Positions 25,697 through 58,019 of a stretch of 64,000 bases of DNA are shown here, one piece after another (within the stretch, counting starts at the first letter, position 1; each line of letters begins with the position of its first letter). Source of the DNA: Tetraselmis striata (lineage: Eukaryota > Chlorophyta > Chlorodendrophyceae > Chlorodendrales > Chlorodendraceae); the NCBI GenBank assembly GCA_006384855.1, contig VCJN01003492.1, positions 87,096-151,095 of the forward strand, read 5' to 3'. The notes under the pieces were generated by a model. The model ran no database searches and had not been told where the DNA came from. It saw only the letters and a program-made list of their open reading frames with translations. A program made the position numbers and the translations under genes.

Positions 25697-28417
25697 ATGT
25701 AAAAACTGTCTCGTAACCCGTTGCGAGCAAGGTCACCCCAGGTTGTTCAAGACCACACCCGGCTCACCACCCGAGTGTGATACTCTCGTCCGTACGTCCG
25801 TGCGTTACCATGCCAGATGGAGAACCCGTCGTTGAGCCGACGCTCGAGTCGCTACACGCAGACGTGAAGGCCCAGTCTACATTACTGCGGGAGCTTGCTA
25901 CATCGATGGCCCAATTGACGGCTCGTGAGCGCGTTGTTGATGGAGAAGGAGCACATGGTTCCGGTTCCAGGCGGCGCGTCGCGGGACAGCCGACAGGCAG
26001 CGGGGGAGCCGCAGAGCGCCCCGACTTGCTAGAGCTAGCCCAGAGCGGCCGTGTCGGAGCAAAATCCGTGAGTGACGAGGATGACTACCTCGCGGTTCCA
26101 GAACTACTGCAGAGAGCAGAGTCTGGTTACGAGGCCGAGTGCATGGACTCCTTCCCCTGAGCACCGACCTAACGAACGAGTACCTCAAGCAAAATGACCG
26201 GCGTCTGCCGGCCCAGGAGGAGTATTTGTGGATGTCGTGTTTCGGGGCCCACATGGCCGCGCTTTTCGTGGCTCTCGACGAGCTGCTGCCCTACGTCCCT
26301 GCCACCAACCAGGACTTCACCCCCTACCTCGCGAGAGCTCGGAACCACGCCGAGGCCATCGACAAGGCGTTTCGGTTTCGTTTGGCCTTCCTGCGGAGGC
26401 TAAATGAGATCAAGCGTGTGCACGGTGACCAAGGTGTTTTGGACGTGTTGCGAGCCCAACACTTTCAGCCTGCTTCGGAGCATCTGGGTTCCGTGATTTT
26501 TGGGGACCTCATGAGGGACTACGAGCGCCGTGTTTTTTAGGCGACCGTTGCCAGTAGCGCGAAAGCGACTGCTACTGCTCGAGTAGCGGCTGCAGCTGCA
26601 GGTCGCGGGCGTGGGCGAGGACGTGGCGGTGGTCGCGGGCGTGGCCGCGAAGGTGAGCACGAGTGACGGTGCGGGGCGCCTTTCGCCGGAGCTGCTGGAG
26701 CCTTGCGAGGCCACCTTCCGGTGACCGCCGCAAGACGCACCCTTGCAGCTCAACGGCGAGATGAGCGCCCCGTGTCAGGACCTGACCCCCCCACCTTACA
26801 GACTTCCTTTAGACCTTCCTCGGTGCGGCGCTTCTCACAGCTACAGCCGAGTGCGGCTCAATCATCCGCACACCTGCACATGGCGGCTCAACCAACCGCT
26901 TTCTTTACCTCATCTCAGCGTCCGTCGGTTGTTACACTACGTGTTACAACTGGTTCGCAACGACCAAGTTTCGCGCGGGTACGTTACGCGCGTGACATGC
27001 GCTACGAGCGCGAAGGGCGCGCGGGGCGGCCCTCTTACCTGAACCTAGCCCCGCAAACCCGTACCGATGCTACTGCAAACCCGTCCAGCAGCTACCGGCC
27101 AACCGCCGGGAACCTAACCGCTGCTGCCGAGTACTTTGCGAACAACAATCGTACCGGTGGAACTCTGTCAGTAAAACGACGCACTTACGTGATTGACGAG
27201 CCTGAAGCTGTGAGTCGCTCCCTGCTGGGCTGCTTCATTGCGATCCCGGCTGCAGGACGCGTTCGGCTCAAACGAGCTGGGCTAACGGACGCTCGACCTA
27301 CTCTCCAGCTCCCTCAGCGCTCAGACACTCAAGAGCTACGCCGGCCGGCTGCCTCAGTTCGCGGAGTTCTGCCACGACTCCGAGAACATCAGCCCGCTGG
27401 AGGCGACTACTGCTACTGTCGTTCGGTATGTTGCCTGGATCGGCGAGCGGGGGCACATCGCAGCTAAGTCGCTGCAACCCTACATGTCCGCAATCAACAC
27501 CTTCTTCGAGCTGCGCAACCTCGACCCAATCGCCAAGGACAGCCTACACCTAACTTCAGCAAGGCGTGGGCTGATGCTGCGTCAGCGCCGGCTGGACGCT
27601 GCCCCTTTGCGTGTCCCTCTGCCTTCGGATGTAGCTTATCGCTTCGTCACAAGGGCCGAGCTGATTGTGTCTGCTCCCTACCCAGAGTACCACCACGACT
27701 TCCGAGCCCTCCTGGCCTCGATTGTCAACTTCATGTTCTTTGCCAGGGGCCTTACTGGCGTGACCTGTCGAGTGCGAGACGTGCACGTCGACGCCTACAA
27801 CATCACCCTGCAAGTGTACCGAGAGAAGGGTCGCGCTGGTCGACGGGGACCCGACGACCTACGCGTACTTCTCCTCCCAGTGTCAAAGCACCCCCGAGTG
27901 GCGCGTCTCCTGCACCACTTCCTCGACCACGTCCAGTCAGTTCCCCTTGCTTGTTACTGTTGGCTTGACTGTGTCAAACTTCTGGGCTGTCAGATCGGCC
28001 GAGCAGTCAAATCCTTGGACTGCGGCTACAATGTCAGACTGGCTGTCCACGGCCGTCCGTCTAGTCAACGCTGCCCCCCCCCCCCCCCCCCCCGCTGGCA
28101 CCTCCTGGACCTCACACAGTCTTCGCAAGGGCGCAGCCTCTGCAGCAAACGCCATCGGGGTGCCATTGTCCCACATTCGCTACCAGGGCGGTTGGGCCAC
28201 TAACTCTGACGTCGTTCTGGACTACATCGACCCCAACGTACTTCCTTCACCTGGCGCATGGTTCTTCTTTGGACACATCGCCCCCCTACGCCACTTCCAA
28301 GTCCAACAGCGGTGGCCTTCCCAGTGCCTCCTTCATGACTTGGCGCTACCTCTTCTCCGTCAATCCACCGCTCTCTCCGTTCGCTCAAGACAGGCAAAAC
28401 CAGACTCAACTTTCAAA

Positions 28418-42761: not shown

Positions 42762-44967
42762 GTGTCGGAAGGGCTCACTGCACTCGCCGCGCGCGGGATC
42801 ACAGTCGTTTTCGCTGGCACCGACTCGATCAGCAGGCGCTTGAGCGGGGGCACATCCGCCCCTAGGCCGCCTGAGCCACCGCCATCGGCCCAGGAGGCTG
42901 GGGGGGGGTCCTCTGCAGGCCTCGTGGGCGGCGGAGTGGTTTAAGTTGGCGCGACGCCCGAGATTCCGGCCGCTGCCGCAATTGCGCCCGCCGCCGATAT
43001 ACCCGAAAACGCCGCCGCTGCGCCCGCCGCCGTCATACCCGAAACTGCCGCAGTCGCGCCCGCAGCGAGATCGGCGCCAGTGCAGCCGAAAAAGCGCGGT
43101 CGACCACCTGGCAGCACCAACAAAGCTCCGGGCCGAGGCAACGGTCGAGGTGGCGGCCGCGCGCGCGGTCGCCGTGGTGGCCGTGGTGGTGGTGGTGGCC
43201 GTGCTGCGGCTGCTGGTGGCCATGCTGCCGCTCCTGCGGCACCGACCGCCGTTGCGCCCGCAGCCGCCGCCTCTGCGGGCATTACCCTGGTCTCGTCCGC
43301 CCCTGGCCCGTCTGGCCTTCCCTCTATTGACGACGACGACGCCATCGACGTCAGCGAGGAGGTGCTGGAAGCCCCTGAGCCCGAGGCTCCGAATGTCGAC
43401 GCTGGGCCCGATTTTGTCGCTGCGCACGGCTTGCGGTAGAGAAAGGGTGGCGAGCGCACATGCGACCCTGCGAACTACGACAAGCACACCCCAGTTCTGT
43501 CAGGCGTCCTTTTCCGCTGTGCCGCCGACGCGTCTATCCTGCAGTTCTTCACGGCTTTCTTCTTGCCTCCGTCTTACCTCGCGACTATACTGCAAAGCTC
43601 ATTCAAGCCCGGCTACTGGATTGTTGTAGATGAGTCCATGGTGCCCTGGCTGGGCCGAGGTATGGTTGGTTTGATGTTTGTCCCTAGGAAGCCCACTGAG
43701 AATGGTGAAGCGCACACCACATGCTGCTGTGAGACAGGGATACTGATCATGTATGAGTTTTATGAAGGTGCACTCAGAATGGCCAATGCTGAGTACATTA
43801 ATTTTAAAGTAAATGTACTAGCTAGGGACTCGCAATGACAAGCTGGGTGCCAATGGTGCTGTCGCGTTGCGATGCACTAAGCCTTGGCATGGGAGTGGTA
43901 GGGTAGTGGTTCTGGATGCTGGCTTCATGAGTGTGAGGACTGCCCTGGCCTTCTTTATGCACGGCCTCTACACCATTGGCAATGTCAAGACTGCGCATGC
44001 CTACATGGTGAAGGAGTGGCTATTGAGCCAGGTCCCTTACCGCGGCGATCGGGCAACGGCGACCACCACCATCTCCGTTGCTGGGCAGGAGGTGTCCTTG
44101 CTGGCCGCAGCCGACATGGACAAGCAGCCGATGGTTCTGCTTGGCACTGCAGGCACGTCTAGCGAGGGCGAGCCCAGGCAGCGCAGAGTACCCATCAAGA
44201 AGCGCACAGGTGAATTCGCTACTTACGATTTCACGCTGAACCAAATGAACATCCACAGCAAGTATCGTGCGCGCTTCAACACTGTTGACCGCCATAACGC
44301 TCTTCGCCAGGGCCACTCCTGCATCGAAAAGTCTGTCAGGACTCTGCGCTGGTGGGTTCGTGACTTTCACGCGCTGCTAGGCATTTCGCATGTCACCGCG
44401 TATCTGGCCTGGCGGTACTTCAAGCATGGCCAGGCGTCCTTCCCGCAACACACATGTATGCGCCGCCTTGCATATCAACTGTGCACTAACCCGGAGGTGG
44501 AGACTACTCGCTTCACCAGGGGATGTGGGAGCCGGACTCATGACCTGGTGAAGGCGCCTGGCAAGCGCGCTGTGCGCACATGCACTGTTGCGGGCTGCAC
44601 CAGGAAGTCGCGCTGGTATTGCATTTGTGGCAATGCTCCAGTGATGATTACTAGGGGAGACGTGAATGATAAGGGGAAGCGTCAGGCCCAACCGCACTGC
44701 TACTTTGTTTGTGGGAAAGAGCACCCTGAGTGCTTGGCGGCGCACAAGCACGAGGCCGCTCAGCGGGCAAAGAACTCTCAGCGGTGTAGCGTAGATATGC
44801 CCATGTGCGCACTCTATTCAAGCTTATGCAGTGCAAATGTAAGGTATCCACCCCTCAGGACAGTGCATGGTGCAGCTGGGGTCATACTGGGTGGTGCAGT
44901 GGTGGGACATGTAACAATCAACGAGCATGGTGATGGCCGTAACTTGATTATTTCGGTTAGTATTTAG
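42762..44967 (+). pseudogene. piggyBac-type transposase (DDE_Tnp_1_7), degenerate
   Basis: One frame runs from 42762 (MSEGLTALAARGITVVFAGT) through an Ala/Pro-rich linker and an AT-hook block (KKRGRPPGSTNKAPGRGNGR) to the catalytic core. The three acidic residues of the piggyBac core are visible: Asp in WIVVDESMVPWLGRG (about 43629), Asp in RVVVLDAGFMS (about 43915) and Asp in FNTVDRHNALRQG (about 44287). A Cys/His-rich C-terminal finger follows (CTVAGCTRKSRWYCICG ... CYFVCGKEHPEC, 44577-44745). The copy is dead: in-frame stops at 42942 and 43437 and a frame change close to 43838. Intact relatives are about 550-650 residues; all core motifs are in order here, so the decay is moderate. An alternative open frame at 42514-42843 may be the original 5' end. 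Confidence 0.8.
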
Positions 44968-46100: not shown

Positions 46101-47418
46101 TAGTGTTGTGCATGCCAGCACAAGATTAAGAGAGTGGTCCAGTCTAACGGACGATAATCAGAACTAACTTCAACTGTGAAAGGTTGCCAGCAAAAGAGAG
46201 ACATAAGCCTGAAACCAAGGTCGAGCCGGAGGACAGGGAGCCAAGAACCAAGAAGGAGCCAAGGGAACCACGAAATCACTTAGCAGCCAGGGACCAAAGG
46301 GACCCCCGCCCCGGGGAAGGCTATCAGCCGCGGCGAGGACGCTTGCAGCCAATGACCCGGGTCATAGCAACACATGCCGACGAGCGACGCGACGCAGGCG
46401 CAGGAGTACCATTACGTGCCGCACGCGCGGACGCGACCCCGCCAAGAACGTTGTCTGCATGTGCCATGTTGATGAGCAAGGAGAAACGGCGGCGCCACGC
46501 AGACAAGAGCTGGCCGATTTTTTGGCCAGTGTGTGTGTGGCTAGCTTTTTAACGGACGATAATGGTTTTATAAGAGTTGATTGGTACGGGGGTGACCACC
46601 GTTTTTGCCGTGGGCGGCATGCAAAGTGCCGTACATCTGCTTTTCAGTGCTAAAGCACTAGAGTGCCAAAGCACCGGCGCTGAAGCTCAGTACTGGTGTC
46701 GACCCCCGCATACCCTAAGCAGGGCGGGGAAAAGGAAACCCCACGAACACAGCTCGTAACAAAATCTGTTGGACCCAGGGTACCCCGGTACCCTGAATCC
46801 GCATTTTTTTGGCTGCCGTACATGTGGCTAATTTGGACCGTGTGGAAGAAGTACGGCAACAAAGCATGGCACCTAGGGATCTTTGGCATGTGGCCTTCTT
46901 AGACGGAGAAGTGTCGACACCCAACCGGCTGGTATTAATTGCCTACCTCGGCTCCTTGTAATTCAGTCAACTACATTTCCCATAATAATTCCGACTGACC
47001 GACTCACCCTTTCTCTCTCGTGACAGTGCCACTCAGCCATCACCACGGCGACAGCGACTACATATCGTCCATCGCCCACGGCTCATTGCAGCCCTTTGCC
47101 TTTCCAGCTTGCCCCTTGCTTGCTGGCACTCGACGTGATTCGACGCGTGCACGCCGACTCTCGCCGACTCTCCCCCCATCAGTGACAGTGTCACTCAGCC
47201 ATCACTTCGACAACCCCCTCCGACAGGTTATGGGCCCTCTCCTTTGGTTCGACGTCTTGCCCCGTGCTCGACGCCTGCGAGAGGCTTCAACCTGCGTGTA
47301 TCTATCTAGACCCTCGACAGCTTTCGACGATCAACGGCGACGTACGACGAGATTTTCTTCCCACCCGCCCATCCCTACAGCTATACATCCCCAAGCACAA
47401 GTGCGCCATCTCTTCGCA
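46101..47418. other. Region upstream of the copia-type element; no LTR recognised
   Basis: ACGGACGATAAT occurs at 46147 and 46552. GACAGTG(C/T)CACTCAGCCATCAC occurs at about 47024 and 47182. I looked here for a long terminal repeat matching sequence right of the retrotransposon and found none; 46990-47418 is probably the element's leader. Confidence 0.4.
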
Positions 47419-50400
47419 ATGTCTACCAGCATCGACACCGGCATGATGAACACCCCATCCTAGCCAATCTGGCTCGGCAGAGCGCGATCAAGACCGACCC
47501 TGGCCACGCCCCGCCACCTCCTTACTTCCGTGATGATACCCGTTCTGACGACGCCTTCAGCACGGACGGGGCGTCAGACAATGACTCAGATGACATCTAG
47601 CATATCAAGCCTGCTGCAGTGAAGCCGACCCTCTACCTCAAGAACGTCCCCATCTGGGACAGCACCATCTCTACACGGGACAACGCTCAAGCCATCAAGA
47701 TCGCTCTCGGCAGCGCTGGCTACTTGGACACCACCAAGGGCAAAGGCACCCGTCAGGAGCAAATGATCCTTCTGGCAGCCCTACGCCACGCAACAGCGCA
47801 TTATCCCATGGCACTGGCCATCGTCAACATCATCAGCATGGATCCCAAGAATTGTGGATATATTGCATGGAAGGCTCTTCTTACTGAGCTCCATGGCTCA
47901 GCCATGGGGGAGCGTAAGCGCTTGGAGGAGGAGATCACAACGGGCCAGCTCCCGAATGAGTCGGTTCAGGTGTATGTTCGGCGCTACTAGAACCTTTGGA
48001 ATCTGCTGAACAAGGCACATGGCCAGTGGACCTTCGAGTACGTGGCTTCCAACTACCTCACCCCAGGCCTTCACCCAGACTACGATCATATCGTCGACAC
48101 CACCACCTCGGCGGCCACTGTCAACGAGAAGCTGGCAACCATCATCAGCGCCGGACATAACATGGAGGCGCGCAAGCGTCAGCGTCAGCATCGCGTCCGC
48201 GCGTGCCCACCCAACCTCAATTTCTACAGCCCTAGGGACCCGCAGCACACCACCGGGCCCAGCGTTGTCTGCAGACGGTGTGCCCGTCCGGGCCATACCC
48301 AGTAGCAGTGTGTGGCCAGGCGCCATGCCAACGGCCTGCGTATCCTGGATGACACCACGCCGACCAGCACCATGACCAACCCTCGCTATGACCACCATCA
48401 GCGCGCGCCTGCGGAACGTCGCGTCAACACCAACTATGGCCACCACCCGCGCGACAACTACCGCCATCAGGCGCCACCAGGCCAGCATTTCTACAACGAC
48501 AACCGCAACAATCGAAACAGGCCCCAGCGGCAGCAGCGTTGGACAAACCATGGCGGCAACGACGGCATGCATCGTCATCAGCAGCCGGTCGGCGTCGTCT
48601 CCCCGGCCGGACGTTAGCACCCGGGTCATCAGCATGCCAACGACATCTTCAACCAGCGGCCGACGGGACACAAGGAATCCTACCCGTTCGTGGGAGTGTC
48701 CCCATCGGCACAACACCACATCAGCCTGCCCATCATGATCACCTGCAACACCGCCGCCCCAAAAGGGGCGGACACCGGAGCACAGGAGGGGGAGGGCGAG
48801 GACAGCGCGGAGGATGACTTACATGACCCCTGGCACGTCCCCTACTCCGACTCTTATGCCGACTTCGAGTCCCCGTTCTCACACTCATGGCATGTTCACC
48901 GCTCCCGCCCTCACCCCGACGCCTTCCCGATCTTCGATACCCCCGACATCCCCCCCCCCCCCCCCCGCTGGAACGTTTACTCCCATCCCTACCCCCCTCG
49001 ATCCCCCCATCCACCTATTCGACATCAATTGGCAACGTCCCCACCCCGTCCCCACCCCAACCCAACCCCTATGCCTCACTTCACCCACATTCCTCGCCTC
49101 AGCGGCTTTGGCATCCCACATTCTTCCTGCGTGGCGACCCGCCACCAACACTACCACTCCTCACCGCTGCGCCGATCCTCCCGCTGCCAACCTCTCTGGT
49201 CATCGACCATCTCTTTTCGCCATGCCATGGCCCATCGGCATCTGAAGTAGAGGCTCTGGTAGAATACGGTTTCACCATCCACAAGATCACCGGCGCCGAC
49301 CCGTCGCCCGAGGCTCGTACTATGTGGACGCATCGCCTACACGTCATCAACGACAAGTACCCGGACCGTCGCCCCCTTCAGCATTTCAGGACCGTCATGC
49401 CAGGACCCCCATGGACGTTAACAACATCACCATCGCGAAGCTCGAGACCCTGCGTCCGGTCACCCTCATCGTGTCATGCCCACCGTGTCAACCATGGTCG
49501 CGCGCTGGCTCACGCCTTGGCTCGCAGGACCATCGCTCTCGGGCCTTTGCTTCCGTCATCAGTTTCATCCGTTTCTACCTGACTACACAGCCCACACCGG
49601 TGCGCTACATTGTGGAGAATGTTCCGAGCGCGCTGGACTTCCCTGAGATACTCTCCTCACTTGGCACCGGCAACATCATGCGTGCGACCGCCTGCGGCTC
49701 GGCGGCTCACCCCGACGCCCTGCTGTGGACCAATATCGCTTCGCAAACCAATGTCAAGGACTACATCGACAACATCAACGCCATCGAGCTCACTGACCCC
49801 GGCCCCTGCGCGTGGGACCTCTGTCTCTCCGAATTCCCCCACTTTACTCCGGTGGTGACAACTGACTACTTTCCGAAGTTCGTCGCCCGCCCCGGCTCAA
49901 CGCTTTTCGCACGCAAACCAACGGTCAGCCGGGCACTGGCATGGTTTACGAACATTACGGCCCCTGGTCCTGGGCAGACAACGGCAGATGGTGCGAACCC
50001 CCTGCAGCTCCACGCGCGCGCTCGCGCCATGGGCTTCACCTTGGATGATCTGCCAAAATCTCACCTTTCTGAGGCGACACTGCGCAAACTTCTCGGCGGG
50101 GTCATCGACCTCAACGTCATGCGCAACTACATCAAGGTTGTCTCGGGCGCCGCCCCTTCCCTAGCCGTCATCACTGTCTGCCACACGTCATACGGCATCT
50201 TCATCACCAGCGATGGCGAGGCATGGACGCTCATCGACTCGGGAGCATCATCTCACGTCAACGCCCACCGCATCGACTACATCTACTACATGGACATTCC
50301 TGCGGCGGAGCAATTTCTGGTGGGCGGTTTCGGGCAACCGGCGGTCGGCATCGGCACCACGTTGGCGCCAACACTAGACATCACAGGCAGGCCACATACC

Positions 50401-53341
50401 ATTGTGGCACGAGACTGTTACCATACTCCCAACATCACCTCCAGCCGCCTCCTCAGCACCCATCAACTCAGCAAGCATGGCTACTCCTTTTACTTCAGCC
50501 GCCTCCTCAACAGCATGATCACTCCAGATGACGCAGTCATCCACCTTCAGTCCTACCCAGGCACCACATGCATGTACGGCATCAAGCTCCTTCCCATCCG
50601 CGATCCGTCTCATGGGGTCATGGCACTGCCATCTCCGACGGCCTCCTACTCCATGTGGCATCTTCGACTTGGTCTTCGCTGCGCGCGCCACATGGAGCTC
50701 ACCCAACAACATGCCATCGGCATCCCGAAACTCGGATCGGCACCGGAGGCCATATGCCCAGCGTGCATTCATGCCAAATCCCACCACCAGTCAGTCAACC
50801 GTCAGCCCTCCCCACGCGCGGAGGCACCGTACACGCTCGTGGTCATCGACGACTGGAAGGGACCTTGTCCGTCGGTGACTGGCGCGTAGCATGTCTTCGG
50901 CGCGGTGGGTTCCTACACTGGAGTGAAGGTAGCAATCACCATGCGCACCAAGGACGAGGCCGTCCGCGCCGTCCATCAACTTCATGCGGCGGTTCTCGGC
51001 ATGGGTCACACCGTTCAACGCATACGTGCCGATCGCAACGCGGTTTATACCGGCTCTCCGTTTCGTCAAGCATGTGCCGACCTCAACATCGCGCTGGAGT
51101 GTACCGCATCCCATTCTCATCATCAGGCAGGCCTGGCGGAGCGCTCATTCCGCACTATCGGTGAGTGTGCCCAAGCCATGCTCCTCCACGCCGGCCTCGA
51201 CCGCACCTTCTGGGATTGGGCATATCTTCACGCCGTCTATCTCTGCAACCGCCAGTGGAGCTCGTCCGTCAACGCCATACATACCTTACACGCTGATGAC
51301 TTGTCGCAAGCCCGACCTCGCCAACCTGCATGTTGTCGGCTGTCTGGCCTGGGTCAACATACCTGTGACTATGCGGGCAGCCAAGGGGAAAATGACACCT
51401 AAATCTTGGCCGGTCATCTACGTTGGCCACCATGAGGACTCCGCCGGCTACCGCATCTAAAACCCAGCTACCAGGCGCGAAACGGTTACACGCGATGTCA
51501 TCTTTGACGAGGTGACACGACCCTTCTCCAGCACACCGGCACTCTCTATGCCAGTCTTCCGGCTCCCCGACGATGACCACCTGATGGATGAGCCGCAACC
51601 CTTGGACCAGCAGGAGCCCCACGCGCCGCCACCCATGCCACCATCAGCGGCGCTTGCCTCGGCGAAGGAGGGGCCCCCACCTCCTCAACCCGAAGGGCAG
51701 TATCTTCCGCGTCATCAGGGGGGGACGCCACATCACTACCAACTCCTCACTCCAGTGGATCAGCGCACATATCTTCCCCTTATGTCGACCTCAGCGACTA
51801 CCACCCCACGCTAGTGGCATCCGCCATCGCGGAGGTTATGCGCCCCTACCGGGCGCAAATGGCCGCTCTCGCCCTCCAGCAGCACCCACTGTCCGCGTGT
51901 CCAAGGCGCCGCGCAACTACAAGGAAGCCATCTTCAGCAATCACCCCGATAACTGGAAACAGTCCATGGACCGAGGGATCGCCTCTATCACTAAGATGGA
52001 GACCTTTGTTTGGATCAGCATTCCTGAGCTTCGCCGTGACAACTAACCCATCAGCAATCATCATACAGACGGCGTGGGCCTTCGCGGAGAAACAAGACAA
52101 GGATGGCAACCTCATCAAGCGCAAGGCCAGAGTGGTTGTCCGCGGCGATCAACTTACTGCCGGCGAGAACTATGATGACACTAAGACCTATGCCCAAGTC
52201 GTCAGTTTCATCGCCTTGCGCACCACTATTGCTCTCGCAGTTCAACTTGACTGGGAGCTGTACCAGATCGACGTCACCTGTGCTTTCCTCAACGCTAACC
52301 TCGATGAAGATGTCTACGTCTACCCCCCCCCCCCCCCGGCTACGGCCGCAAGGATCAGGCTTGGAAACTCGTTAAGGCACTCTATGGCCTGCCGCAGGCA
52401 CCCAAGGCATGGTTTCTGCGCTTTTCTTCTTTCTCCATGACTTCGGCTTCGTCAACTCCGAGTGCGATCCGGGCGTATGGACGCTGCTCGCAGTCGATGG
52501 ATCGCTGCTGGCCATCCTATGCGTCTACGTCGATGACATCATCCTGGCTACCTCCCCATCGTCCGACATCCGGGAGCGTTTTCAGACTTCTCTCTTCTCT
52601 ACGTTTGATGCGACTACTAACGGCCTATGCACATGGCTTCAACATGGCGGCGTGCGCGCCTCGCCGCCTACCCTGCACACCGGATACCGATTTTCATGAC
52701 CCTACAGGCACGCCCCTCGACACCAAACTCTTTCCCTATCCCAATGTTGTTGGTAGCCTTATCTGGCTGGCTGTGGCATCACGCCCGGACATAGCGTTCG
52801 TGGTCGGCCGCCTATGCGCCTACATGGCGTCCCCAACCGAGCGTCACTGGCAGATCGCCGTCTCGGTGCTGCGATACCTCAAGGGCACCCCCAACCATGG
52901 CCTCATTTTCCGGAAGCAATTGGACAACGAGGCACCTGCCTTCCTCTTCTTTGTGGACGCTGACGGGGCTACCTTCATGCCCAAACGCCGCTCCACTACT
53001 GGCTATCTTGCCTTGGTGCACGGCATCCCAATCGCCTACCGCGCGCAAGTTCAGAAGAGCGTGGCCCTGTCTACTGCCGAGGCGGAGTTCGTGGCGCTCT
53101 GCATGGCTTGCAAATGTCTGGCGTTTATTCGCGTCCTTCTGCGCCAGCTCCACCACCCCACCACTGACCCGGTATGCGAGGACAATCAAGCGTGCATCGT
53201 TCAGGTGAAGCATGGTATGATTACATGCGCGCAACGCCACATTGACCTCAAGTTTCAGTATGCAGCCCAACTCTGCCAAGACGGCGTCATCGACATGCAC
53301 TACACGCCTACCGCAGACCAACTCGCCGATTCTTTCACTAA
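47419..53341 (+). mobile_element. Ty1/copia-type retrotransposon carrying a cytosine DNA methyltransferase (fossil)
   Basis: Parts in order: gag (about 47419-48310, with AIKIALGSAGYLDTTKGKG and a CCHC-type knuckle near 48259), a low-complexity linker, a C5-cytosine methyltransferase domain (about 49190-50130), protease (DSGASSHV near 50236), GAG-pre-integrase with the CPACIHAKSH finger and integrase core (about 50640-51460), reverse transcriptase (about 52050-52650; CVYVDDIILAT) and RNase H (about 52720-53341; ALSTAEAEFVAL, DNQACI). Integrase before reverse transcriptase is the copia order. The element is broken, with roughly half a dozen or more interruptions, although protease and methyltransferase share one long open frame. 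No terminal repeats were recognised; the right end stops abruptly at an inverted-repeat boundary at 53342. Confidence 0.85.
49190..50130 (+). other. C5-cytosine DNA methyltransferase domain inside the copia-type element
   Basis: Visible motifs of the DNMT/DCM fold, in order: a motif-I-like VIDHLFSPCHG and motif-II-like ADPSPEA (49200-49320), motif IV with the catalytic Cys in SCPPCQPWSRAGSRLG (about 49471-49515), motif VI VENVPSAL (about 49612-49635), and a C-terminal motif-X-like LSEATLRKLLGGV (about 50066-50105). In known enzymes the PCQ Cys attacks C6 of cytosine and the ENV Glu protonates N3; both are present. The domain lies directly before, and in one frame with, the aspartic protease, so it was part of the element's polyprotein and not a host gene beside it. 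Motif VIII (QRRxR) is not clear to me. Confidence 0.8.
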
Positions 53342-53940: not shown

Positions 53941-54007
53941 GGGGGGGGGGGGGGGGGGGAGGCGGGCGGGCGTGGTCCCTCCCCCCCCCCCCCCCCCCCC
54001 CCCCCCC
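53941..54007. repeat. G run followed by C run (potential hairpin)
   Basis: About 18 G at 53941-53958 and about 27 C at 53981-54007 with 22 bases between them; the two runs are complementary and could fold back, or form a G-quadruplex/i-motif pair. Confidence 0.8.
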
Positions 54008-54632: not shown

Positions 54633-55112
54633 GGCGCTGTGAGCGGTGAAGGGGGGGGGGGGGGGGGCGAGGTGGAGAAACTAACACCCAGTCGACGACC
54701 GCCTTCCGCAGCAGTCAACGACACATCGGAGGCGAGGAGCAGCGCGCCACTGCTATTTACATGCACGTATTGTCAAGAGCTAGTCGGTGCGGCATTGTGT
54801 CGGTGTAATTTCGCAATGTTTATTGCTGAAGTAGCACGGCGTAATGAATACGCGGTTTCACCGAGTGAATCCGGGATAATATGTGCGGTAGGGCGCGCGT
54901 ATATGTGCGCGACGAATGTGCGCGCGCAGCGTTGTGCGGCGGTGTGCGGCGGTGTGCGGCGGTGTGCACCGATGTTAATATAGTGTGGATGTTATATCGG
55001 CCGTAGACGATCGGGTCTGGCAGCACCGCCCGTGCTTGTAAATAAGCGACAATGGATCACGTCATGCTCCGGTTGTACTCCTACACTTCCTCCACTTTGG
55101 CGGGGGGGGGCG

Positions 55113-55145
<33 letters not shown>

Positions 55146-55447: not shown

Positions 55448-55761
55448 GCGGATGGAGTGCATTGGCGGTGCATAGAATAGCGTGTCCCTGGGGTTTTGGC
55501 TGCATCAGACGCCGTATTCCCATCCATCCGGCACGGAATGTCCGGTTTTCACACATTTGTGTGTTAATATAGTGTGAATATTACGCGTCTTTTACGCCGG
55601 GTGGATGGGCATCCGGCGTCAGATGCACCCCAATTATTTGCAGCACGCTACTCTACGCACCCCCAACGCACTCCGCAAGCCCCGCCTCCATCCGCGTCGG
55701 AACCGGTAGTAAGTGTTGTTGTGTGCGCACATCGTGACAACATTACACGGTGGCAATTGCA

Positions 55762-55778
55762 ATGTGTATTAGAGACAG
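55762..55778 (+). other. Tn5/Nextera mosaic-end-like sequence
   Basis: ATGTGTATTAGAGACAG differs by one base from the transposase mosaic end used in sequencing libraries (AGATGTGTATAAGAGACAG). It interrupts one foldback unit where all others read CAATTAGCGGTGGATAATG, making this unit 10 bases longer. Confidence 0.65.
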
Positions 55779-56772
55779 GTGGATAATGTGAAGGCGTTTT
55801 CGAAATCGACAGAGAATGAGGCGGTGCTGGCGGAGTGCATTGGCGGTGCATAGAATAGCGTGTTGCTGGGGTTTTGGCTGCATCGGACGCCGTATATTCC
55901 CATCCATCCGGCACGGAATGTCCGGTTTTCACACATTTGTGTGTTAATATAGTGTGAATATTACGCGTCTTTTACGCCGGGTGGATGGGCATCCGGCGTC
56001 CGATGCACCCCAATTATTTGCAGCACGCTACTCTACGCACCCCCAACGCACTCCGCAAGCCCCGCCTCCATCCGCGTCGGAACCGATAGTAAGTGTTGTT
56101 GTGTGCGCACATCGTGACAACATTACACGGTGGCAATTGCAATTAGCGGTGGATAATGTGAAGGCGTTTTCGAAATCGACAGAGAATGAGGCGGTGCTGG
56201 CGGAGTGCATTGGCGGTGCATAGAATAGCGTGTTGCTGGGGTTTTTGGCTGCATCAGACGCCGTATTCCCATCCATCCGGCACGGAATGTCCGGTTTTCA
56301 CACATTTGTGTGTTAATATAGTGTGAATATTACGCGTCTTTTACGCCGGGTGGATGGGCATCCGGCGTCCGATGCACCCCAAGTATTTACAGCACGCTAC
56401 TCTACGCACCGCCAATGCACTCCGCAAGCCCCGCCCCCATCCGCGTCGGAACCGGTAGTAAGTGTTGTTGTGTGCGCACATCGTGACAAACATTACACGG
56501 TGGCAATTGCAATTAGCGGTGGATAATGTGAAGGCGTTTTCGAAATCGACAGAGAATGAGGCGGTGCTGGCGGAGTGCATTGGCGGTGCATAGAATAGCC
56601 GTGTTGCTGGGGTTTTGGCTGCATCAGACGCCGTATTCCCATCCATCCGGCACGGAATGTCCGGTTTTCACACATTTGTGTGTTAATATAGTGTGAATAT
56701 TACGCGTCTTTTACGCCGGGTGGATGGGCATCCGGCGTCCGATGCACCCCAAGTATTTACAGCACGCTACTC

Positions 56773-56786
56773 CTGTCTCTTACACA
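56773..56786 (+). other. Second mosaic-end-like sequence, opposite orientation
   Basis: CTGTCTCTTACACA matches the complement of the mosaic end (CTGTCTCTTATACACATCT) with two bases missing, and replaces part of the CTACTCTACGCACC block seen in the other units. Confidence 0.6.
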
Positions 56787-58019
56787 CCGCCAATGCCACT
56801 CCGCAAGCCCCGCCCCATCCGCGTCGGAACCGGTAGTAAGTGTTGTTGTGTGCGCACATCGTGACAACATTACACGGTGGCAATTGCAATTAGCGGTGGA
56901 TAATGTGAAGGCGTTTTCGAAATCGACAGAGAATGAGGCGGTGCTGGCGGAGTGCATTGGCGGTGCATAGAATAGCGTGTTGTTGGGGTGTTGGCTGCAT
57001 CGGACGCCGTATTCCCATCAATCCGGCACGGAATATCCGGGTTTCACACATTTGTGTGTTAATATAGTGTGAATATTACGCGTCTTTTACGCCGGGTGGA
57101 TGGGCATCCGGCGTCCGATGCACCCCAATTATTTGCAGCACGCTAGTCTGTGCACCGCCAGTGCACTCCGCAAGCCCCGCCTCCATCCGCGTCGGAACCG
57201 GTAGTAAGTGTTGTTGTGTGCGCAGATCGTGACAACATTACACGATGGCAATTGCAATTATTTGCGGTGGATAATGTGAAGGCGTTTTCGAAATCGACAG
57301 AGAATGAGGCGGTGCGGGCGGAGTGCATTGGCGGTGCATAAAATAGCATGTTGCTGGGGTGTTGGCTGCATCGGACGCCGTATTCCCACCCATCCGGCAC
57401 GGAATGTCCGGTTTTCACACATTTGTGTGTTAATATAGTGTGAATATTACGCGTCTTTTACGCCGGGTGGATGGGCATCCGGCGTCCGATGCACCCCAAT
57501 TATTTGCAGCACGCTACTCTACGCACCCCCAACGCACTCCGCAAGCCCCGCCTCCATCCGCGTCGGAACCGGTAGTAAGTGCTGTTGTGTGCGCACATCG
57601 TGACAACATTACCCGATGGCAATTGCAATTATTAGCGGTGGATAATGTGAAGGCGTTTTCGAAATCGACAGAGAATGAGGCGGTGCTGGCGGAGTGCATT
57701 GGCGGTGCATAGAATAGCGTGTTGCTGGGGTTTTGGCTGCATCGGACGCCGTATTCCCACCCATCCGGCACGGAATGTCCGGTTTCACACATTTGTTTGT
57801 TAATATAGTGTGAATATAACGTACGCGCCTTTTACGCTGGGTGGATGGGCATCCGGCGTCCGATGCACCCCGAATCTCACCAACACGCTACTCTACGCAC
57901 CCCCAACGCACTCCGCCAACCCCGCATGTTTCCGCGCAGGTCCTACGTTCCATTGTATGTATATACATACGCACATGTACTGCTCCGAAACCAGCCCAAA
58001 CTTAATGAGTGCACAAGTG

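Follow-up and report, generated by a model that had tools for sequence, protein, structure and literature searches.

A decayed copia retrotransposon of the green alga Tetraselmis striata and its sister copies with a predicted DNMT3-like methyltransferase domain between gag and protease

In many hosts, cytosine methylation is a standard route to transposon silencing, and a transposon that keeps a methyltransferase under selective constraint is therefore a standing puzzle. Retrotransposons encoding DNA methyltransferases (DNMTs) have been published from the dinoflagellate Symbiodinium (DIRS elements and long interspersed nuclear elements, LINEs) and the charophyte Klebsormidium (Gypsy elements), with de novo CG methylation in yeast shown for the Symbiodinium DIRS enzymes and earlier reports of reverse transcriptase (RT)-linked DNMTs cited within (PMC5890265). 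Here we describe a Ty1/copia element in a stretch of 64,000 nucleotides, hereafter the window, from Tetraselmis striata, a core chlorophyte of the class Chlorodendrophyceae (GenBank assembly GCA_006384855.1, contig VCJN01003492.1, positions 87,096 to 151,095 of the forward strand). The copy in the window is a broken relic; sister copies in the same genome carry a C5-cytosine methyltransferase (MTase) domain between gag and protease in one long frame. That the element is Ty1/copia and that the domain is a C5-cytosine MTase is close to certain.

On copia elements with such enzymes, Sarre et al. (2025) have one clause, which refers to 'LTR Copia and DIRS' DNMT3s and cites the 2018 paper PMC5890265 (PMC12344493). 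The phrase concerns streptophytes and dinoflagellates, whereas the cited 2018 paper says Gypsy; Tetraselmis is absent from the main text of PMC12344493, and its consulted passages name no chlorophyte retrotransposon. Within Tetraselmis, PMC9998398 reports DNMT5a from one alga and DNMT6 from three, with no link to retrotransposons in the available text, and the available parts of PMC3145265 and PMC12477816 contain no DNMT-bearing retrotransposon of this kind. No published copia-DNMT element of Tetraselmis or any other chlorophyte was found in the open-access literature. The original prediction for this locus had called the configuration unusual, and this agrees with a record in which the published cases are DIRS, LINE and Gypsy elements (PMC5890265) and copia appears in that passing clause.

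By blastn against sister copies, the element spans window positions 46767-53341, with the MTase between gag and protease. The features of the window copy are as follows.

46767..47225, + strand: 5' long terminal repeat (LTR), 459 bp, by blastn to sister copies L033-L037, which have both LTRs.
47226..47237, + strand: candidate primer-binding site GGTTATGGGCCC, directly after the 5' LTR and putatively of the half-tRNA-iMet type.
47420..48311, + strand: gag with a CCHC zinc knuckle near its end and in-frame stops, from stop-to-stop segments and alignment to sister frames with CRRCDRPGHTQQQC.
49191..50140, + strand: predicted DNMT3-like C5-cytosine MTase domain, borders approximate; PF00145 at 49408-49635, full extent by sister-copy alignment.
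50216..50484, + strand: aspartic protease region (LIDSGASSH) / Pol_BBD (PF22936, E 8e-4, under cut-off).
50590..50781, + strand: gag_pre-integrase (PF13976, E 4.8e-5, under cut-off).
50893..51457, + strand: integrase core (PF00665, E 1.3e-4, under cut-off) and SH3-like C-terminal domain (PF25597, E 7e-12), in two frames.
52039..52640, + strand: copia-type RT (RVT_2) spread over three frames, its indels including an 83-base deletion, by Pfam and sister-copy alignment.
52640..53341, + strand: RNase H region, assigned by position without a Pfam match, at the end of which the blastn match with the sister copies stops.

The order gag, MTase, protease, integrase, RT, RNase H has integrase before RT, as in copia elements. 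Neither gag nor RNase H has a Pfam match of its own in this copy, and both were placed by alignment to sister copies; the order of the Pfam domains and that alignment bear out the copia arrangement of the original prediction. Its C5-cytosine MTase between gag and protease also holds, being recovered by Pfam (PF00145, DNA_methylase; E 4.3e-9, 36.7 bits with a cut-off of 22) and repeated in four families. In the window copy the match lies in the frame 49246-50886 and covers frame residues 55-130 (window 49408-49635), that is, only the core around motifs IV-VI. Pol_BBD and then gag_pre-integrase follow downstream in the same frame, both under their cut-offs, and pieces of integrase (under cut-off), SH3-like domain and RVT_2 lie in other frames 3' of it. 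Of the proposed span 47419..53341 the end stands; the start falls in the start region of gag, and the 5' LTR begins at 46767.

The window copy aligns with sister copy L037 at 95.2% DNA identity over 6531 bases, gaps excluded. The alignment holds 25 indels, 16 of them not divisible by three (script count): three in the LTR and leader, one in gag, two in the linker, three in the MTase, none in the protease, one in the integrase, three before the RT, three in the RT and none in the RNase H part. This copy is therefore a relic in which gag, MTase, integrase and RT are frame-shifted, and its long MTase-protease frame owes its existence in part to these shifts. The PPC and ENV motifs of the MTase are present, but its N-terminal part with the S-adenosylmethionine-binding motif (~49191-49400) lies in a different frame from 49246-50886; a single open frame with the protease, as had been proposed, exists as printed at 49246-50886 and does not hold for the whole domain, which is split by its three frame-changing indels. 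A 3' LTR was not found by blastn to sister copies, and the window copy taken alone, with only its 5' LTR, has no LTR pair. The idea that the element encodes its own MTase thus fails for the broken window copy and holds for sister copies, in which the domain stands in the element's own frame with its catalytic motifs kept. In two protein searches with the window frame, 32 of 33 and 29 of 30 matches were T. striata gene models, the remainder being the window's own protein; among gene models P0002-P0050 none was identical to a fetched copy, the best reaching 98.6% over 218 residues and 98.3% over 288.

Other copies with the same domain order were found in the assembly (224 Mb, 2903 contigs). A PF00145 search, with 123 of 337 candidates scored, gave at least 123 matches of every type, among them free-standing enzymes. 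Twenty regions were fetched out of the 123 listed, picked mainly for long frames: five are members of the window's own family (family 1; L033-L037), twelve of family 2 (L021-L032) and two of family 3 (L039, L040), while one is a LINE (L038). The longest frames reach 2162 amino acids (aa) in family 1, 2299 aa in family 2 and 2483 aa in family 3, and on several contigs the same order recurs inside single frames of ~2000-2480 aa, in copies that have LTRs and target duplications. From an RT search (150 of 897 candidates scored, one member read per frame length) came family 4, read in L042, whose 2147-aa frame (a length shared by at least seven RT rows) has an MTase between zinc knuckle and protease; it scores 18.5 bits with PF00145 (cut-off 22), yet aligns along its whole length with the other MTases. 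Four copia families carry the MTase at the same gag-protease site. In their single frames RVT_2 matches at E 7e-44 to 1e-68, with integrase before RT. Whole-frame identity of family 1 to families 2-3 is 28-35%, and families 4 and 1 are 31% identical across the MTase, 33% across the integrase and 34-35% across the RT. A search with the family-1 MTase (122 of 531 candidates scored, so that counts are lower bounds) gave at least 125 matches; among those listed 34 span the whole domain (starting at residue 9 or earlier and ending at 327 or later), and 21 of these are free of stops. With the same placement in many copies and four families, the domain is therefore not a chance insertion. A fifth copia family, sampled once (L041), has copia pol domains in a 1561-aa frame and no MTase; more than 40 of the 150 scored RT rows have that frame length, L041 being the sole member read.

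The LTR pairs are 481-486 bp long and 99.6-100% identical in family 1 (TGTTGG...CCGACA), and 461-481 bp and 97.5-100% identical in 10 of the 12 family-2 loci, the other two being L022 (LTR cut by the locus edge) and L031 (two elements in a row). Family-1 LTRs end in TG...CA and those of family 2 in TG...GA; in family 3 only 142-144 bp of LTR lie inside the fetched loci. Of the 16 loci checked for a 5-bp target duplication, 12 have it in full; it is cut by the locus start at L030 (three of five bases agree) and unreadable at L028, L029 and L032. A purine tract, GATGAGGAGGGG, precedes the 3' LTR, and family-1 sister copies have GGTTTTTGGGCCC at the primer-binding-site position where the window copy has GGTTATGGGCCC. 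The near-identical LTR pairs point to recent movement of the sister copies.

Seven MTase domains, from families 1-4 and the LINE, were aligned, and PPC, ENV, the motif VIII arginine and a C-terminal G..D.N block are conserved in them; the catalytic motifs are invariant across families at 29-50% MTase identity. Against solved structures, a five-family profile finds DNMT3A first (E 3e-10), then M.HaeIII (4e-9) and DNMT3B (3e-8), with DNMT2 types at E 4e-8 to 2.5e-7. In fold comparisons with predicted structures of the family-4 and family-1 MTases (predicted local distance difference test, pLDDT, 67 and 71), DNMT3s lead by Foldseek for the family-4 model and by VIA for both models; their lead over M.HhaI is about 3 Z units, with some DNMT3B entries level with or below M.HhaI for the family-1 model. 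Profile and modelled fold together place the putative enzyme nearest to DNMT3. No PWWP or ADD domain was found beside the retrotransposon MTase in Pfam scans of the element frames.

The LINE extends over L043:881-5050 and L038:3-6413 (contig C2687) and has RT, PCIF1_WW, DNA_methylase and RNase H domains, in that order, in one long frame of 3505 aa; an APE-type endonuclease region is visible by eye upstream of the RT, without a Pfam match. It is one retrotransposon with two methyltransferase-type domains, its C5-MTase being related to the copia ones. Relatives also occur outside the assembly: among the 120 of 242 protein matches listed, ten are environmental proteins (P0051-P0060, E <=9e-46), and the next match follows at E 2.7e-9. 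P0051 carries PF00145 and a copia pol label, and P0054 two copia pol labels and a match to the MTase profile without a PF00145 label; the layout therefore exists in environmental sequences too.

In a tree of MTases with 11 bacterial-type rows as outgroup (the outgroups of the MTase trees being bacterial-type rows only), 21 retrotransposon MTases group together as a single clade (100/100). In it, the LINE enzymes and the window's family are sister groups (96/90), the copia protein P0051 joins next (97/96), and P0056-P0060 cluster with the LINE enzyme (100/98). With four rows removed, support falls to 93/90 for family 1 with the LINE and to 84/75 for P0051, and a topology with all copia MTases as a single clade is not rejected (approximately unbiased test, p-AU 0.126). 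By RT identity, family 1 stands at 34-35% to families 2-4, which share 48-50% with the MTase-less copia, so that family 1 is further off. One capture with loss, repeated capture and exchange are all compatible with these identities and trees. As to an origin by capture from a host gene of today, free-standing MTases of the genome (among L001-L017) all score below 43.6 bits with the retrotransposon profile, lower than environmental and bacterial-type proteins, and no DNMT3-like host gene was seen by eye among those fetched (best 20 matches, spliced genes being searched exon by exon). A free-standing C5-MTase of about 325 aa occurs whole or in pieces at 12 fetched places (L001-L006, L008-L012 and L017), three of them on contig C1230; it looks mobile or viral, and not closely related to the copia enzyme. 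L016 (contig C2009) holds a 630-aa, bacterial-looking Dcm-type frame, and this contig may be a bacterial contaminant.

Selection was gauged by the ratio of non-synonymous to synonymous substitution rates (dN/dS, by NG86). Between family 2 and its sub-family the MTase gives 0.20 (L030), 0.23 (L031), 0.29 (L032) and 0.22 (L029); two close family-2 pairs give 0.33 and 0.42 (9-12 changes each), and family 2 with family 3 gives 0.24 (dS 1.8). Three family-1 pairs stand at 0.08, 0.08 and 0.04 (9-10 changes), and three wider ones at 0.18-0.33, against 0.46-0.70 in the linker; L048, a member of one of the wider pairs, has PSC instead of PPC and retains the cysteine and ENV. The MTase value stays under 1 and is lower than in the adjoining linker in 13 of 13 pairs, though mostly not below 0.2 and with few substitutions in the close pairs. 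Set aside were the family-1 RNase H rows (dN/dS 0.60-0.79), where L033-L035 run out of the shared frame, the L021-L032 row from protease to pre-integrase (58 codons across a broken frame), and the partial integrase of L021-L031 and partial gag of L021-L028.

Derivatives are of two kinds. In family 2, five of the 12 loci have no RT match; L026, L029, L030 and L032 retain gag, MTase and integrase, the integrase of L031 is broken, and the LTRs of L030 are identical. In family 1 the MTase itself is cut short: 39 of the 125 matches listed end at MTase residue 212-214, at 60-71% identity. One such copy, L044 (contig C427, 321900-328900), has LTRs 99.8% identical, a 5-bp duplication (CACCT) and an open frame of 1235 aa with gag, a shortened MTase lacking PPC and ENV, and a remnant of the RT in which no YVDD was seen by eye; the MTases of L045 and L046 have suffered the same losses. 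By its reading frame, the L044 type is a putative non-autonomous derivative of the window's family with an MTase predicted to be catalytically dead. Between L037 and this derivative, dN/dS is 0.53 in the MTase remnant and 0.27-0.28 in gag; compared with the counts of an intact pair the shift is suggestive and not significant (Fisher p 0.06). Within the derivative relaxed constraint is not shown, the MTase standing at 0.24-0.32 from 6-7 non-synonymous and 7-9 synonymous changes.

What the enzyme does can be approached from its place. Lying inside the gag-pol frame, the MTase should be translated within the gag-pol polyprotein and enter the virus-like particle together with RT and integrase. There it might methylate the element's own double-stranded complementary DNA (cDNA) before or at integration, so that a new copy would enter the genome already marked as resident chromatin and would be spared from defences against unmethylated foreign DNA, with limited cost to the host. 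We regard this as the most economical role and propose the mechanism tentatively. To the reading as a whole, a decayed copia copy with a DNMT3-like MTase in its gag-pol frame and self-methylation of cDNA, we give a probability of about 0.5.

Several observations pull the other way. A profile built from the window's family only is weak and finds DNMT2 first (E 0.008), then DNMT3B (0.018); motif I of that family is atypical, with SPCHG where other families have LCAG or LCSG; and in both structural models the target-recognition part has pLDDT below 50 and is unreliable. Derivatives with a shortened domain that has lost PPC and ENV are common, as the 39 of 125 listed matches and the three copies read (L044-L046) indicate, and together with L041, the MTase-less copia that was the one member read of the frequent 1561-aa frame length, they imply that the enzyme is not needed in cis. 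Finally, the observed/expected CpG ratio is 0.80-0.89 in seven MTase-bearing copia sequences, 0.80 in the MTase-less copia, 0.96 in the window copy and 1.00 in the window, so that MTase-bearing copias are not more depleted than the one lacking the domain and show no MTase-specific footprint.

The substrate could instead be RNA, either the genomic RNA of the element or its tRNA primer, inside the particle, or the domain could serve as a nucleic-acid chaperone. DNMT2-type tRNA enzymes are among the matches of the five-family profile (E 4e-8 and 1e-7) and top those of the window-family profile, and the LINE with a related MTase also has the PCIF1_WW domain, which we take to represent an RNA cap methyltransferase family. 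For the SymbioLINE enzyme, no DNA methylation was seen in yeast, a result its authors call inconclusive (PMC5890265). DNMT3 nevertheless ranks above DNMT2 with the five-family profile and fills the top fold ranks, while PPC and ENV are common to DNMT2 and do not discriminate; on balance we consider action on RNA unlikely. Just as unlikely, in our estimate, is an MTase directed at the host genome or at rival copies, setting heterochromatic marks near insertions or tempering copy number to the benefit of both. Such a target would fit a domain that is constrained though not needed in cis, and a host-benefit role has been proposed for the published DNMT retrotransposons (PMC5890265), but with many copies of an element, selection for a benefit in trans is difficult.

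A passenger domain, caught by chance and kept as a polyprotein spacer without catalysis, would account for the common derivatives with a dead, shortened MTase. Against it stand the catalytic motifs, invariant at 29-50% identity across families, the lower dN/dS of MTase than of linker in the wider family-1 pairs, and the value of 0.53 against the dead derivative beside 0.27-0.28 in gag, although that count difference is not significant; we hold a passenger to be very improbable. An annotation or assembly artefact, with a host or bacterial MTase beside copia fragments, might be suspected from the broken window copy and its scattered frames, but chance or misassembly is ruled out by sister copies on several contigs that keep the same order in single ~2000-2480-aa frames and have LTRs and target duplications, and free-standing MTases rank below environmental and bacterial-type proteins with the retrotransposon profile, so that its probability is negligible.

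On a wider reading, one DNMT3-like module might circulate among algal retrotransposons of different orders as a portable self-modification kit, at the gag-protease site in copia elements and beside a PCIF1-type domain in a LINE. The new DNA (or RNA) copy would be marked and pass as resident, comparable to the self-modification of phage genomes, and a small ecology could form around the enzyme, of autonomous elements, RT-less derivatives that keep it and dead-enzyme derivatives riding on active relatives. We regard this wider picture as doubtful.

Beyond the element, a tandem array lies 2 kb past its end at window 55454-57925 (371-bp unit, 6.6 copies, 94% matches), and near-pure runs of C and G occupy 53977-54007 (31 bases) and 55102-55144 (43 bases). 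Other mobile elements in the window are marked by a tyrosine-recombinase N-terminal domain (Phage_int_SAM; 27286-28200, + strand) and a piece of DDE_Tnp_1_7 transposase (43822-44964, + strand).

One 224-Mb assembly thus holds at least four MTase-bearing copia families, recently moved copies, an MTase-less copia, dead-enzyme derivatives and a LINE with a related enzyme. These classes supply the controls for asking why a jumping gene carries an enzyme of the silencing type.

Among known enzymes, DNMT3A and DNMT3B (PDB) are the best profile and fold match, with the motif order I, IV, VI, VIII, X in common; identity in the fold alignments is 18-23%, and the target-recognition region differs. Among known elements, KnitGypsy-Dnmt3 of Klebsormidium nitens is also an LTR element of a green-lineage alga with a DNMT3-type domain in the pol frame, key residues kept and purifying selection (PMC5890265). 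It is, however, a Gypsy element of a charophyte, whereas the Tetraselmis elements are copia, with the domain at the gag-protease site, in four families and in a core chlorophyte; the enzymes are compared here by description.

SymbioDIRS-Dnmt3 and SymbioLINE-Dnmt likewise exist in many intronless copies, old and recently active, with the DNMT in retrotransposon frames, that of DIRS being of the DNMT3 type (PMC5890265). These are DIRS and LINE elements, and the Symbiodinium copia superfamily is described as being without any DNMT domain (PMC5890265). The Symbiodinium LINE and DIRS enzymes fall in different DNMT groups (PMC5890265), whereas the Tetraselmis copia and LINE enzymes form one clade relative to bacterial-type enzymes; in SymbioLINE the DNMT occupies a separate upstream frame (PMC5890265), and in the Tetraselmis LINE the MTase is part of one long frame. 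CpG depletion, published in the available text for SymbioLINE-Dnmt only (PMC5890265), does not extend to the Tetraselmis copias. As far as searched, what is new in Tetraselmis is the copia superfamily with the domain at the gag-protease site, the chlorophyte host, the presence of four such families and, within one genome, the occurrence of related enzymes in both copia and LINE elements.
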